IMG/VR virus record: IMGVR_UViG_3300028548_001574
Coordinates: 1-28,838 of that record
Strand: one strand, 5' to 3'
DNA length: 28,838 nt
DNA from: a virus
The notes beneath the pieces were generated by a model, which saw only the letters and a program-made list of their open reading frames with translations, was not told the origin of the DNA and did not search any database. Shown one piece after another: positions 1,335 through 7,742 of the stretch; the first letter of the stretch is position 1, and each line of letters opens with the position of its first letter. A program made the translations under genes and the position numbers.

Positions 1335-1628
1335 TTATGATGTTGGAAAGTTAATAAATAGTGGTGATATTGCAATCATCACAATGGTTAATGGTGCAAT
1401 GATGCTAGCCATAGCCACTATATAAGTAGGTGTTTGTTGTACAGGTTGGTTGGTTCTGATTATCTTAGAGCGAGCTTTAAGCTTGCGTTTGGTCCTAGTA
1501 ACAATAAGGGCCTGCAATTCATCTCGTTGCTCAATCATGCGGCTATCGTATGGTGTTGTTACTGTACCGGTAGATAGTGGCATTTGTAGGTTGTAGTTTT
1601 GTGCAATTCCGAAGGTTTTAATAATCAT
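1335..1628 (-). CDS. Small protein with C-terminal membrane segment, first ORF after the terminus-like region (97 aa)
   Basis: The ORF encodes 97 residues starting MIIKTFGIAQNYNLQMPLS. A basic middle (TRTKRKLKARSKIIR, about residues 44-58) is followed by a hydrophobic stretch (about residues 69-92) ending shortly before the C-terminus, consistent with a tail-anchored inner-membrane protein whose basic region faces the cytoplasm. AAAGGA precedes the ATG by about 10 bases. It is the first ORF transcribed after the repeat-rich region, the position of the earliest genes in T7-like genomes. Early membrane-active proteins are known in phages, for example superinfection-exclusion or host-inhibition factors; no specific family is recognised here. 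Confidence 0.6.
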   Translation of the reverse strand: MIIKTFGIAQNYNLQMPLSTGTVTTPYDSRMIEQRDELQALIVTRTKRKLKARSKIIRTNQPVQQTPTYIVAMASIIAPLTIVMIAISPLFINFPTS

Positions 1629-1689
1629 CTGGTCCGTCCTTTAAAAGAAAAATAAAAACAGCTTATAGGAATAATAGATTCAGTACAAT

Positions 1690-1749
1690 AACTATTTAAG
1701 TAACAACAACTATTTAAGTAACAACAACTATTTAAGTAACAACAACTAT
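1690..1749. repeat. 18-base tandem repeat, three copies plus a partial one
   Basis: Three identical 18-base units, AACTATTTAAGTAACAAC, lie end to end at 1690-1707, 1708-1725 and 1726-1743, followed by a six-base partial copy. The unit contains the AT-rich core TATTTAAGTA and a CAACAA tail. It sits between the candidate early promoter and the first early ORF, so it would lie in the 5' leader of the early transcript or overlap further promoters. Confidence 0.95.
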
Positions 1750-1786
1750 ATCGTTATAGTATTTAATACAGTTCGTTTAGTTTACA

Positions 1787-1814
1787 TATATAAGGTGGTC
1801 AATAGGTTGGTCAA
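1787..1814 (-). promoter_or_regulatory. Candidate sigma70-type early promoter
   Basis: On the minus strand TTGACC (1809-1814) is followed after 16 bases by TATATA (1787-1792). The first hexamer matches the -35 consensus at five of six positions and the second matches the -10 consensus at four of six. Because the -35-like hexamer is part of the 12-base repeat, every repeat copy carries one. The location upstream of the small early ORFs fits transcription by host RNA polymerase. No transcript evidence is available from sequence alone. Confidence 0.35.
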
Positions 1815-1868
1815 TAGGTTGGTCAATAGGTTGGTCAATAGGTTGGTCAATAGGTTGGTCAATAGGAA
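1797..1868. repeat. 12-base tandem repeat, six copies
   Basis: The unit GGTCAATAGGTT recurs six times starting at 1797, 1809, 1821, 1833, 1845 and 1857; the last copy differs at its final two bases. On the minus strand the unit reads AACCTATTGACC and carries a TTGACC word. Arrays of short direct repeats flank the terminal repeats of T7 (a 7-base unit there), so a packaging, terminal-repeat or initiator-binding role is plausible. Further CAATAG words at 2145, 2157 and 2181 may be decayed copies. Confidence 0.95.
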
Positions 1869-1999
1869 AATCAAAAACGATAGTTTAGCCATTGATAGGG
1901 AAAACAATCGGACCATCTTAAAGCTATCAATAAGGCCATCAAAAGAACTATTAGAGGCTGCTATCCTCTTTTTAAATGAGGCTCTGCAGGCCCTGCAAT

Positions 2000-2037
2000 G
2001 GACCCTTAGACAATCCCTAGGACATTGGCTAAGGTCC
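2000..2037. repeat. 38-base imperfect palindrome centred on CCTAGG
   Basis: The arms begin GGACC(C)TTAG at 2000 and end CTAAGGTCC at 2037. Inner arms CAAT/ATTG flank a central CCTAGG at 2016-2021. Pairing is near-complete apart from a single-base bulge on each arm and a few mismatches. No U tract follows in either direction, so a simple terminator is unlikely. A protein-binding dyad or a terminase or replication-linked structure in the terminus region would fit. Confidence 0.75.
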
Positions 2038-2191
2038 TCTCAAGATTCTGATAGGTAAGAGGGGGGTTTCCGCCTGCCCCGATACGTAATCACCCTCTCA
2101 TAGTTTTTCGCCAAAACAAAAGTTGGGAAAACTCATGGACAATTCAATAGACAATCCAATAGCCCTACATAAAGGATAACCAATAGACTAC

Positions 2192-2260
2192 TCTCAGAGA
2201 TAATCTTAGAGATATGGTGTTGTAGTTTAATCCACAAACATCACATCTCAGAGATAATCT
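2192..2260. repeat. Paired 15-base direct repeats with internal dyad
   Basis: TCTCAGAGATAATCT occurs at 2192-2206 and again at 2246-2260, exactly 54 bases apart start to start. Each copy contains the small palindrome TCTCAGAGA. A spacing of about five helical turns would place two bound proteins on the same DNA face. The pair lies just downstream of the terminase stop in the transcription direction. Confidence 0.85.
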
Positions 2261-2322
2261 ATAGAGGTAATCCCTAGTATTCCCCCTAGGTGCAACCTTT
2301 GCTATTTAGTCCTATCTTAGAG

Positions 2323-3972
2323 TTAAATCCACTTGTCAGACTGTCTGGTATAACCCACAGCATGGTCCATAAACCTCTCAATTTCTCTGTTGAAAGCTTC
2401 TGCTTTTTGCATTGTAGCTAAAGATTCACTGTCAGCATCCATCTGTTCTGTCCAATAGGCGACAGCCATACTCAGAGCGTCCAAGCGGTCATCATGGATG
2501 ATTGCTCCTCTGTCTCTGGTAAGTCTAGTCATCTGGTAGAACAAACTGTAAGAAGGTTCTGGTGCGCTGTCGTAGTCTTCCTTGATGAGCTTCTCATCGA
2601 CTACCAAACGGTGCTGCATCATCACAGGTTCAAGTGTATCTATAATCCTCATCTCTTTCTGAGTGGAGTGACGGACTTCTTCTATAGATACCTTGTGGAT
2701 TCTGTTAAGTATGGGAGTCAATAACTTCACATACATGCCATCACCAAAGTTACTCTCTACAATCACCATGTTCACTGACTCTTGCTTGGCAACAGTAGCT
2801 AAACTTGTAAGTGTCTTGTCCGAGTAACCACCCGTGAAGCCACCTACGCGAGTGACATATAGATAACCATTGAGCATCTTTACAACAGCGTAGGCTGTCT
2901 CGTCTTTACCACGACCAGAGGGGTCAATGGAAAGTACTGAGCCTGTGAAGTCCATCATGTCGTCAGACATCCACATGGGTCTATAGAACTTGTCCCCAGT
3001 GAACCCTACGATAGGCACATTCTCTACTATCTGTGAGGGACCAGAAGCCCATGCTAGGTCTGCCCAACCTTTCTTAGGGTTCAACGCAGTCACCATCAAA
3101 TCTGATAGCTTTAGTGGGTACTTGTCAGCGTCTGCTAGTGTTGTGTCCAGCATAAACTGCAGGGCAAAACCTGCTTTACCATAGGATGCTTCACGCTCCA
3201 TAAGGTCTTCTTTAGTAAACCTGTCAGGCTCTGTAGGTAACCCCTCATTAGAGGCCCTATGAAGCTCTATAAAGGGTGCTAATCTACCCTGATACATTGC
3301 TGATTGTTTGTCTGTAGGGTAGCGAGAGGGCCATACTCGTATCTCATAGCCACGTTCTGGTAGCAGGTTGTATATGGACATCTCAGTCTGGGGCGTGCCT
3401 AGGTAAATAACACGACCATTAGGCTTTAATACAGCATCAAACTCTTTGATTGCCTCTGATAGTTTGTCTCGCATAGTCTGAGTAGCAGAGTTGTTTGTAA
3501 CCTCTACGTCATCAGCAATTATAGTGTTAGCACGGGACCCTGTAAGCTGACCTGAGATACCCACGGACTTAACCGAGGGAGAGTGGTCAGGCATGGAAGG
3601 TCCAACATCAAATGCAATGACAGAATCACGTTGCCCATTCTTTGTGCGCAGGTGTGATAGCAGTTCAATCTCATTGATAAGTCTTTTGGTAAAGGTAGAG
3701 AAGGCATCAGCACGTTCTTTAGAAGCTGATACAACTAATATCTTATGTTGAGGTTCACAGTACAATAACCACACTACATAAGCCGAGGTAATCCAAGACT
3801 TTCCGATACCACGGAAGGCTTCAATGACACAACGCCTAGGTCCTACTTGGAGATAGCTCCCCATGTCGTACTGGATGGGTGTGGGGTCTGGTAAATTGAG
3901 TGTCTTCCATACGATGTATAGGAACTTACGGAAGTCTTTCTTGATAGGGTCATTCACTACAGGTGTAGTCAT
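2323..3972 (-). CDS. terL: Terminase large subunit (T7 gp19-like)
   Basis: This 549-residue protein is the DNA-packaging motor: an ATPase that drives DNA into the procapsid through the portal and a nuclease that cuts concatemers. The Walker A-like P-loop is AFRGIGKS (residues 52-59) and the Walker B is IIADDVE (151-157). The RNase H-like nuclease domain shows SIDPSGRGKDE (D350), VIVESNFGDG (around E407) and DDRLDAL (D498), the usual three acidic positions. Length is close to T7 gp19 (586 residues). The start ATG at 3972 follows the small subunit stop at 3980 by only a few bases. It is the last gene before the repeat-rich region, as terminase is near the right end of T7-type genomes. Confidence 0.95.
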   Translation of the reverse strand: MTTPVVNDPIKKDFRKFLYIVWKTLNLPDPTPIQYDMGSYLQVGPRRCVIEAFRGIGKSWITSAYVVWLLYCEPQHKILVVSASKERADAFSTFTKRLINEIELLSHLRTKNGQRDSVIAFDVGPSMPDHSPSVKSVGISGQLTGSRANTIIADDVEVTNNSATQTMRDKLSEAIKEFDAVLKPNGRVIYLGTPQTEMSIYNLLPERGYEIRVWPSRYPTDKQSAMYQGRLAPFIELHRASNEGLPTEPDRFTKEDLMEREASYGKAGFALQFMLDTTLADADKYPLKLSDLMVTALNPKKGWADLAWASGPSQIVENVPIVGFTGDKFYRPMWMSDDMMDFTGSVLSIDPSGRGKDETAYAVVKMLNGYLYVTRVGGFTGGYSDKTLTSLATVAKQESVNMVIVESNFGDGMYVKLLTPILNRIHKVSIEEVRHSTQKEMRIIDTLEPVMMQHRLVVDEKLIKEDYDSAPEPSYSLFYQMTRLTRDRGAIIHDDRLDALSMAVAYWTEQMDADSESLATMQKAEAFNREIERFMDHAVGYTRQSDKWI

Positions 3973-4632: not shown

Positions 4633-4677
4633 AATGTATACTGTAATGTATACTGTAATGTATACTGTAATGTACAT
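4633..4677. repeat. 12-base tandem repeat with GTATAC palindromes upstream of the holin
   Basis: The unit AATGTATACTGT is repeated at 4633-4644, 4645-4656 and 4657-4668, followed by a nine-base partial copy ending at 4677. Each full unit carries the palindrome GTATAC. The array fills the gap between the gene ending at 4687 and the holin ribosome-binding site. Twelve-base periodicity of dyads suggests an operator or promoter array controlling lysis and packaging genes. A TATAAG word on the minus strand just downstream could be a -10 element, though no good -35 partner is seen. Confidence 0.9.
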
Positions 4678-5633: not shown

Positions 5634-6533
5634 CTATGCTTCCAGTGCTTCAATCCGCGTAATTAACTCTTGGATTGTTGCGGTTAATAGTGGAACCAAT
5701 TTAGCTTGGTCAATGCCCTGCATATCTGGCACAGAGCGTGTACCCATGACTGCTGCCTCTGTGTCGGTAGCTGGAGTGACTTCATACTCTTCGTCACGCA
5801 TGGCATCTTTAGTGCCTGTAACTGCTTCTGGTACAACCTCTGCTAGTTCATGCGCTATAAAGCCATTGACGTTGCCGCCAGCAATCCAATCAAAGTTACA
5901 AGGTTTGAGTAGCTTAGTCTGTGCTGTTGCACCTGACATTGGTGTGACGTTTTCTTTAAGGCGATAGTCTGAGGATGTAACAAAGTTTGTCTGGCTACCA
6001 GATACAGAAACACCGCCAACCACTGAATTTGCAGCAGTTCTACACGCAAGATGGTATTGTCCACTGGTGTTAAATGACCTTGTTTCCACAATGATGTTGG
6101 TATTATCACGCCTGATATTTACCAGACCGCCAACAGGGGCCGCAACATTAGGTGCTATGCTTACACCACCAGCATTATCAATAGTCATAGCATTAGTCCA
6201 GCTTATCGCTGCGCCTGCTGTGCCTGATGCTGCTACTTTGAAATGGTGAGCACCCGCTTGTTGAATGTATTGGCTGGCTGCTTTGGTTTCTATATATTTA
6301 TTACCAGAGTTATTTATAGCGTTAACACTTATGTCTAACTCGTCATCACCTTGATTGTACCAAGATAGGTTAGACGTAGACCCTAGCTGTAACATATTAC
6401 TAGCAGTTGTTGTTAATAGCGCAGAGCCAACACCTACGTTGCCTGTGAATACTGGACTAGCCAAAGGAGCCTTAGCAGCTAGATTAGCGTCAATCGTCTT
6501 GAGGTCTTCTACCCCATCTCTTGCCTTGCTCAT
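5634..6533 (-). CDS. Tail fibre/spike protein with C-terminal S74 intramolecular chaperone
   Basis: This 299-residue protein has a short N-terminal helix, then beta-rich GNVGVGSALLTTTASN-type repeats typical of trimeric fibres (about 25-185), then the peptidase S74 chaperone domain: SSDYRLKENVTPM (S188, D189) through GFIAHELAEVVPEAV and the terminal coiled coil TATIQELITRIEALEA. In this family the domain assists trimer folding and then cuts itself off just before the serine, which would release about 112 residues. A good ribosome-binding site AGGAGAG precedes the ATG; the upstream gene ends at 6535. It probably forms a receptor-binding or decorating fibre attached to the gp17-like fibre or the tail. 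Confidence 0.85.
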   Translation of the reverse strand: MSKARDGVEDLKTIDANLAAKAPLASPVFTGNVGVGSALLTTTASNMLQLGSTSNLSWYNQGDDELDISVNAINNSGNKYIETKAASQYIQQAGAHHFKVAASGTAGAAISWTNAMTIDNAGGVSIAPNVAAPVGGLVNIRRDNTNIIVETRSFNTSGQYHLACRTAANSVVGGVSVSGSQTNFVTSSDYRLKENVTPMSGATAQTKLLKPCNFDWIAGGNVNGFIAHELAEVVPEAVTGTKDAMRDEEYEVTPATDTEAAVMGTRSVPDMQGIDQAKLVPLLTATIQELITRIEALEA

Positions 6534-6534
6534 C

Positions 6535-6765
6535 CTACTCTCCTGCTGGCATCAAAGCCTTCAACGCTGCTGCATCACTAGCCGCATCCATAGACACTTG
6601 CAAGGCTGCATCGTTAGTACGGATAACTTCCCTAGCTGCTTCGGCTGCTGTAGATTCAGCAGGAATAGTAGCTTTAATGTCTAGTGGTGCAAAGGCTGCA
6701 TTGCGTGATACTCGTCTGGCATCGTGTGCGATTACTTTTGCTTTGGTCATGTCTACAGTAATCAT
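6535..6765 (-). CDS. Small tail-region protein of unknown function (76 aa)
   Basis: The ORF encodes 76 residues starting MITVDMTKAKVIAHDARRVS. The N-terminal MITVDxTKAKxIAHDxRR and FAPLD segments, followed by an alanine-rich helical tail (AADAAALKALMPAGE-like), match a small protein commonly found in phage genomes next to tail fibres and next to the type of gene immediately upstream here. Its role is not established; a fibre assembly or structural helper is often assumed. It overlaps the upstream gene by four bases (6762-6765). Confidence 0.65.
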   Translation of the reverse strand: MITVDMTKAKVIAHDARRVSRNAAFAPLDIKATIPAESTAAEAAREVIRTNDAALQVSMDAASDAAALKALMPAGE

Positions 6766-6974
6766 TCGCCTACTCCGTCTGTTAAAGTATCTGCATCAAC
6801 TACCCACGCATTGCGGAAAGTTCGTTCTGAGGGTACAACATCGTCAGCTACAATCTTGTAAGCCAAGCCCGTTGGTACATCTTTAGCGGCTGTCTCTGCG
6901 TCACTAAGTGTGCAATTAGCTGCTGGTGTAATTACGCAAACATTTCCGTCTGCTTCTTGATAAATGATTTTCAT
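6762..6974 (-). CDS. Small tail-region protein with ERTFRNAW motif (70 aa)
   Basis: The ORF encodes 70 residues starting MKIIYQEADGNVCVITPAAN. The segments AAKDVPTGLAYKIV and VVPSERTFRNAWVVD are the hallmark of a small protein widespread in tailed phages, normally paired with the protein encoded just downstream. Together the two occur near tail-fibre genes, suggesting a joint role in tail-fibre assembly or attachment, not proven. It follows the third small tail paralogue by 14 bases and overlaps the next gene by four bases. Confidence 0.65.
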   Translation of the reverse strand: MKIIYQEADGNVCVITPAANCTLSDAETAAKDVPTGLAYKIVADDVVPSERTFRNAWVVDADTLTDGVGE

Positions 6975-6988
6975 TATTGTTCCTTAGT

Positions 6989-7366
6989 TTATGAGCTAAA
7001 TACTGTTAGGCCAACGCCATACATATCAAACACAGTATTATTATATGACCTTATAACAAACCCCCCAACACTTCCCACGAGCTTTTCATTCTCTGTGACT
7101 TCCCAACTAAATAAGCCATTTCCAGCTGATTGATTGGTGTGTGAGGCATGAGTTACAGTGCAATAATTAGTATTAGGCATGTTGGTTGTAAAGTTAGCTG
7201 TATAATCACCTGTGCCATTATCAGTAATACTGCTAATATTATAAGAGCTACGAATAGCCACATTACCTGTACCATTAAAGTTTACCCAAGCCTTTGCCAG
7301 CCTAGTGCTAGTGTTAGAACTACCAACTGTATCAAAGTTGTCACTTCCTCTTATCGTTGATGCCAT
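6989..7366 (-). CDS. Small beta-rich tail protein, tandem paralogue 3
   Basis: From the ATG at 7364-7366 the product is 125 residues, starting MASTIRGSDNFDTVG; AAAGGAA upstream supports this start over an ATG 11 codons earlier that would overlap the previous gene. The core AWVNFNGTGNVAIRSSYN, then ISSITDNGTGDYTANFTTNM, is shared with the gene at 7742-8122 and, more distantly, with the one at 7383-7742. Predicted structure is beta-strand rich. These proteins lie right after the tail fibre gene and are likely distal fibre or receptor-binding subunits. The C-terminal half (HASHTNQSAGNGLFSW) is unique and might carry receptor specificity. Confidence 0.7.
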   Translation of the reverse strand: MASTIRGSDNFDTVGSSNTSTRLAKAWVNFNGTGNVAIRSSYNISSITDNGTGDYTANFTTNMPNTNYCTVTHASHTNQSAGNGLFSWEVTENEKLVGSVGGFVIRSYNNTVFDMYGVGLTVFSS

Positions 7367-7382
7367 TTGTTTGTTCCTTTGT

Positions 7383-7742
7383 TTATAAGCCGAATACAAC
7401 TAAATTCATTAAAGCATCTGCATAAGCATTATTAGCTTGATTCATATTAGCGGTAATTACTGAAGTAGCAGCATGATTAGACACAAATGAATTGCCATAG
7501 TTATCATCTGAGCATACTGTTGCGTGATTGCCACTTGACAGAGCCGTAGAGAAATTTATCCGTGTAGACCCTGTACCTGTATCAGTAACACTGCTTACGC
7601 CATAACTACCATCAATAGCATGGTCAGCTTGACTCCATTTACACCAAACTTTTGCCATACGCTTATCTAACGCTGGGATACTTGGAGGAGTTGTTGTGCT
7701 TCCGTTACTGTGGAGGAGCGTGTTAGCTTTGATTGTGGACAT
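7383..7742 (-). CDS. Small beta-rich tail protein, tandem paralogue 2 (diverged)
   Basis: The ORF encodes 119 residues starting MSTIKANTLLHSNGSTTTPP. It keeps the N-terminal IKAN motif of the preceding gene, then RMAKVWCKWSQADHAIDGSY and GVSSVTDTGTGSTRINFSTA, the same fold signature in a diverged form (VWCKW in place of AWVNF). Its start overlaps the stop of the upstream paralogue by one base (TAATG). A role as a small fibre subunit is inferred from similarity to its neighbours and from its location after the gp17-like fibre. Confidence 0.7.
   Translation of the reverse strand: MSTIKANTLLHSNGSTTTPPSIPALDKRMAKVWCKWSQADHAIDGSYGVSSVTDTGTGSTRINFSTALSSGNHATVCSDDNYGNSFVSNHAATSVITANMNQANNAYADALMNLVVFGL

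Follow-up and report, generated by a model that had tools for sequence, protein, structure and literature searches.

A 694-bp gap behind the terminase gene of a T7-like marine phage very probably holds its genome ends

Among the closest known counterparts of the region reported here is that of T7, whose 160-bp direct repeat has its left end in the sequence aaaaatctgagtgacta|TCTCAC, followed by CCCCC 25 bases in. Beside this repeat stands the motif CCTAAAG, at spacings that are mostly 12-13 bases or multiples of these, and the flanking copies go by the names SRL and SRR. The T7 early control region has strong host promoters immediately beyond the repeat, and promoters for the phage RNA polymerase, phiOL and phiOR, stand near the ends. 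Direct terminal repeats are also recorded for Pseudomonas phage LUZ100 (244 bp), in which the host promoter P1 is annotated as beginning 112 bp beyond the repeat, and for the integrase-bearing phages HTVC019P (162 bp) and Pasto (271 bp). Cyanophage P-SSP7 was assembled as a circle and thought to be permuted, and was then shown to possess a 206-bp direct terminal repeat when its ends were mapped by Sanger sequencing (PMC3350473). In T7-like phages, terminal repeats are routinely lost or put in the wrong place by assemblers (PMC3350473, PMC10438801), the merging of repeat copies during assembly has been described for przondoviruses (PMC10438801), and the way in which the second repeat copy is made is not fully understood (PMC3350473).

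The window (the whole stretch of DNA that was analysed, 28,838 bp) is an entire linear IMG/VR virus record and derives from a T7-like marine phage whose main genes all lie on the minus strand. Its T7-like genes encode TerL, TerS, a holin, tail fibres, a tail protein, the major capsid protein and the portal, as well as PhoH, both ribonucleotide reductase subunits and an exonuclease. Judged by TerL, the closest isolate is LUZ100 (61% identical), and Rhizobium, Roseobacter and Pelagibacter phage isolates are also near. TerL is the last late gene ahead of a gap of 694 bp (1629-2322), which is the longest of the window, the second-longest measuring 173 bp. The preliminary description had located this spacer between TerL and a run of tiny ORFs on the same strand, and this arrangement was confirmed, the small ORFs being on the minus strand as well. 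From TerL towards the early ORFs, the features of the region are as follows.

2323-3972, minus strand: large terminase (TerL) of the T7 gp19 type (phrog_38, E 3e-120)
2180-2280, minus strand: long imperfect hairpin with paired 15-base repeats (z -4.8 against shuffles)
2145-2186, minus strand: upstream short repeats CTATTG at 2186-2181, 2162-2157 and 2150-2145 (spacings 24 and 12)
2059-2131, minus strand: conserved core with the predicted left cut site (78% identical to the divergent relative L003)
2090-2091, minus strand: predicted left cut, ...TGAGAGGGTG^ATTACG..., with a C6 run at 2066-2061 (top matrix score of the window)
1897-2090, minus strand: predicted direct terminal repeat of 194 bp, its left end well supported and its right end weakly
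1998-2035, no strand: 38-base imperfect palindrome (z -0.43 against shuffles)
1796-1866, minus strand: 12-bp tandem array, CCTATTGACCAA x5.9 (100% matches, score 142)
1785-1814, minus strand: weak candidate early promoter at the array end, TTGACC-N16-TATATA (relaxed scan, 9/12 matches)
1685-1749, minus strand: 18-bp tandem array, ATAGTTGTTGTTACTTAA x3.6 (97% matches, score 123)
1335-1628, minus strand: first of the small early ORFs past the spacer, 97 aa (retained in relatives; without PHROG match)

Alignment of the recorded left ends of T7, T3, Syn5, phiKMV, HTVC019P and Pasto (the ends of the last being a PhageTerm annotation) revealed one common layout, A-rich-TCTGAG-N6-cut-N24..26-C5/6. 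Nine bases separate the cut from the G of GAG or GAA in T3, Syn5, HTVC019P and Pasto, where the C run follows 24-26 bases later, and eight bases separate it from the G of GAG in phiKMV. The window can be written in the same layout, as gaaaaactatgagagggtg|ATTACG with CCCCCC 24 bases in, which would set the cut between 2091 and 2090. A cut-site matrix built from the same six phages scored 19.4 at 2090 on the minus strand, the maximum of the window across both strands (runner-up, 15.7), and the next-best cut-like sites fall inside genes. On the strength of this match, we predict with high confidence that the left physical end of the genome lies at 2090.

The matrix was evaluated against other recorded ends. 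In leave-one-out runs the true end was the top match, to the base, in T7 and HTVC019P, and outside the training set it was likewise exact for P-SSP7 (206 within its end segment). In LUZ100, also outside the training set, the top match lay 12 nt from the annotated repeat start (37087-37100 of the record, upstream of the annotation); the C-run spacing at this site agrees with the other phages, and the annotated terminal repeat of LUZ100 may be slightly short. The prediction was 6 nt off in BB8 and 3 nt off in phiKMV, despite the presence of the latter in the training set, and the end of SP6, which does not fit the layout, was not recovered. RHEph01 was set aside, as the 512-bp repeat at its ends is remote from TerL and may be due to the layout of the record.

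A TerL search of viral contigs returned 80 loci, and the 67 in which TerL is followed by 600 bp or more formed the survey set. In 56 of these 67 loci the best site was found on the coding strand, 0-1500 bp past TerL, compared with 6.1 expected by length; because the loci are related to one another, they were clustered at 75% TerL identity, and the same placement was obtained in 17 of 21 clusters. Some of the failures (L014, L017) display a variant of the cut site that is visible by eye. Among TerL matches in bacterial genomes, the site follows TerL in Marinobacter similis and in a few contigs, but not in the others. In the complete M. similis chromosome the layout appears 526 bases after TerL (TerL at 6001-7632 of the segment), and this locus is a T7-like prophage in which the repeat occurs once. 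The contig ends of near-complete relatives do not coincide with the predicted genome ends.

Conservation within the gap points to the same position. The near-identical contig L002 is 99% identical to the window over the spacer region, and alignment of the spacers of eleven relatives left a single shared conserved block, GGCGAAAAACTATGAGAGGGTGATTACGTATCGGGGCAGGCGGAAACCCCCC, which is largely intact even in L003, whose flanks have diverged (26-57% identity in the rest of the gap, against the 78% of the core). A comparison among related phages had been suggested in the preliminary description, and it singles out the core that holds the predicted cut as the best-conserved block of the gap. The entire spacer gave no meaningful match when compared with phage isolates.

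Short repeats accompany the predicted cut on both sides, with three copies of CTATTG upstream of it and six downstream in the window. The upstream stretch has a 12-base periodicity (z 4.0) and would, by analogy, be the counterpart of the T7 repeats ahead of its terminal repeat, while the 12-bp array at 1796-1866 constitutes the downstream short repeats and is similar to SRL of T7. In the surveyed loci, of which 36 were analysed upstream of the predicted cut and 32 downstream, self-matching is highest at lags of 11 and 12 and shows an echo at 22-24; the combined periodicity Z is inflated by the relatedness of the loci, but a control stretch inside TerL, which is equally related, is without an 11-12-base periodicity. 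T7, T3 and the window phage show strong sharing of a motif between the two flanks of the cut, which is only weak on average; a repeat motif common to both flanks in every phage was rejected.

Both tandem arrays mentioned in the preliminary description proved to be near-perfect, and they have the two highest tandem-array scores of the window. The 12-bp unit is present in 7.9 copies in L002 against 5.9 in the window, so its copy number is variable between relatives. The 18-bp array belongs to the leader that precedes the first early ORF, and its 3.6 copies compare with 2.6 in L005 and about one in L008-L010. Elsewhere in the window, a perfect 12-bp tandem array (AATGTATACTGT x3.5, 4633-4674) coincides with the beginning of the putative holin gene or immediately precedes it.

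Overall, three hallmarks of T7-type ends are found in the window: a region with the large terminase gene on one side and the early genes on the other, the left cut-site layout, with the window maximum at 2090, and short-repeat arrays on either side of the predicted terminal repeat. Taken together, these sequence features indicate that the spacer very probably contains the ends of a genome packaged in the T7 manner. The preliminary description had assigned to the spacer both the physical ends and early control; the cut layout, the conserved core and the flanks with a 12-bp period speak strongly, if indirectly, for the first, and the second is plausible, by analogy, from the position of the spacer and from the promoter beyond the LUZ100 repeat.

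The resemblance to T7 comprises the position after TerL, the left cut layout, the C run 24-25 bases inside the repeat and the short repeats on either side, which have a 12-13-base spacing and one common motif. In contrast, the repeat unit (CCTAAAG in T7, CTATTG or the 12-bp unit in the window) and the length of the repeat (160 bp and a predicted 194 bp, respectively) differ, no T7-like promoter was found in the window, and the contig has one repeat copy. LUZ100 has the same gene order and left-site layout and, ahead of the cut, short repeats spaced by 12 bases (CCTCAAG units), but it is GC-rich, its annotated repeat starts 12 bases inside the matrix-predicted site, and its host promoters have been mapped, whereas none in the window is convincing. 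P-SSP7, another marine T7-like phage whose ends were hidden by circular assembly (PMC3350473), fitted the left layout exactly in a blind test, although it is a distant relative and its right end reads CG|ACCTGTT instead of CCCT|AT. Finally, HTVC019P and Pasto have the left layout in common with the window and also carry short repeats beside the terminal repeat, but these are built from other units, and HTVC019P is without the T7-like right-end motif.

The right end is less sharply defined. Those recorded for T7, T3, Pasto and Syn5 read TCCC(T/C)|ATCTGTT, a motif that is absent in the true members HTVC019P and phiKMV. Between 100 and 500 bp below the predicted left cut of the window, the motif is best matched by TTTTCCCT^ATCAATGG at 1897/1896, with a score of only 1.4. 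A cut at this point would generate the predicted repeat of 194 bp, which is contained once in the contig and falls within the 127-414 bp spanned by the terminal repeats of related phages, and the 12-bp array would start 30 bases beyond it. We somewhat favour, from this sequence match, a right end near 1897. A different right cut, combined with a left cut at 2090 in the spacer, has a considerable though smaller than even chance; the repeat would then not be 194 bp long and would possibly extend into the 12-bp array. The low score, the wide range of repeat lengths and the several relatives in which the right-end motif scores best at another position are compatible with this alternative, whereas TTTTCCCT^ATCAATGG agrees with the TCCCT^AT core that T7, T3 and Pasto share, scores highest in the interval and lies just ahead of the array, as in T7.

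It is much less probable that the spacer is an early regulatory region only, with the arrays serving as operators or promoter elements, the hairpin as a late terminator, and the ends situated elsewhere. The spacer does lie upstream of the early ORFs, a strong hairpin follows the last late gene, and the host promoters of LUZ100 are located just past its repeat. The TTGACC-N16-TATATA sequence adds weakly to this picture; it is the sole pair found by the relaxed scan (1814-1787) and is not kept in all relatives. However, a standard sigma-70 scan detected no pair on the coding strand (2 pairs overall, with 4.8 expected), and the promoter-like pair listed in the preliminary description is not exceptional. 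Furthermore, no promoter-like motif is common to the spacer and the other gaps of the window (the one shared motif above shuffles resembles a leader or ribosome-binding stretch), and the conserved core resembles known cut sites, not promoters; the next-best cut-like sites of the window lie within genes.

The paired 15-base repeats of the preliminary description (TCTCAGAGATAATCT at 2192-2206 and 2246-2260) were recovered and belong to a hairpin of ~90 nt. Folded as RNA, 2180-2280 reaches -36.6 kcal/mol, and 0 of 200 shuffles were equally good. The stem is kept in close relatives, where its bases are mostly invariant and show little covariation, and it may correspond to a late terminator, an RNase III site or a DNA hairpin; an Rfam scan gave matches far below the cut-offs, in which animal microRNA models fitted the hairpin. 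A hairpin ahead of the cut was discarded as a family-wide feature (z only -0.6 in T7 and -1.0 in LUZ100). The 38-base palindrome is likewise present as described, but it folds like its shuffles, similar ones exist elsewhere in the window, and it was dismissed as a special signal.

Least probable of all is headful packaging of a permuted genome, with the spacer as a pac site plus regulatory repeats and no terminal repeat: the contig crosses the junction unbroken, as a permuted genome would, but TerL is by family match of the T7 gp19 and not the P22 type, related phages end in direct repeats at fixed positions, the window contains the fixed-cut layout, and P-SSP7, likewise believed permuted from a circular assembly, has a 206-bp repeat (PMC3350473). 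Of the two origins that the preliminary description had offered for the contig, a circularly permuted or a circularised assembly, the P-SSP7 precedent (PMC3350473) and the gene order of the relative contig G013 support the latter, while the terminase type and the cut layout argue against the former.

Under the preferred reading, a T7-type genome-end region, replication would yield head-to-tail concatemers whose units are joined via one copy of the repeat, predicted at 1897-2090. We infer that the terminase would recognise this region and cut between 2091 and 2090 at a left site composed of an A-rich block, TGAG, six bases, the cut, 24 bases and six Cs, the second cut being made at the right site near 1897/1896. 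The repeat would be copied, so that both ends of every packaged genome carry it. The flanking repeats spaced by 11-12 bp (CTATTG here) would probably serve packaging or replication proteins as an array of binding sites in helical phase. That the contig spans the junction could reflect either the collapse of two repeat copies by the assembler or the sampling of concatemeric, circular or integrated DNA; the late end would run into the early end because a short-read assembler merges the two copies. The order in G013 is TerL, spacer, small ORFs, transcriptional regulator, integrase and RNA polymerase, an arrangement that resembles LUZ100 and HTVC019P. The RNA polymerase, tyrosine-type integrase and transcriptional regulator of this contig (G013:8000-20000, 1048-5497) are encoded upstream, an arrangement also known from temperate members of the T7-like phages. 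The window phage, too, may be a member of this temperate clade, and any integrase region of its own would fall outside the window.

T7-type genome ends, the kind to which we assign the spacer, are already known. Beyond this locus, we lean towards the idea that one cut-site grammar, together with arrays phased at 11-12 bp, marks the genome ends of most Autographiviridae, the sequence of the array unit changing between lineages. No description of this grammar was found in open papers (the scope of the search did not extend to the older T7/T3 subscription literature), and its family-wide character may be new. If true, the ends of T7-like viruses could be called from metagenomic contigs without reads. 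Such a sequence rule for the cut would allow true ends, gene order and packaging sites to be assigned in many uncultured marine phages, and it would provide a concrete starting point for finding the protein that reads the phased arrays and for working out how a second copy of the repeat is produced.
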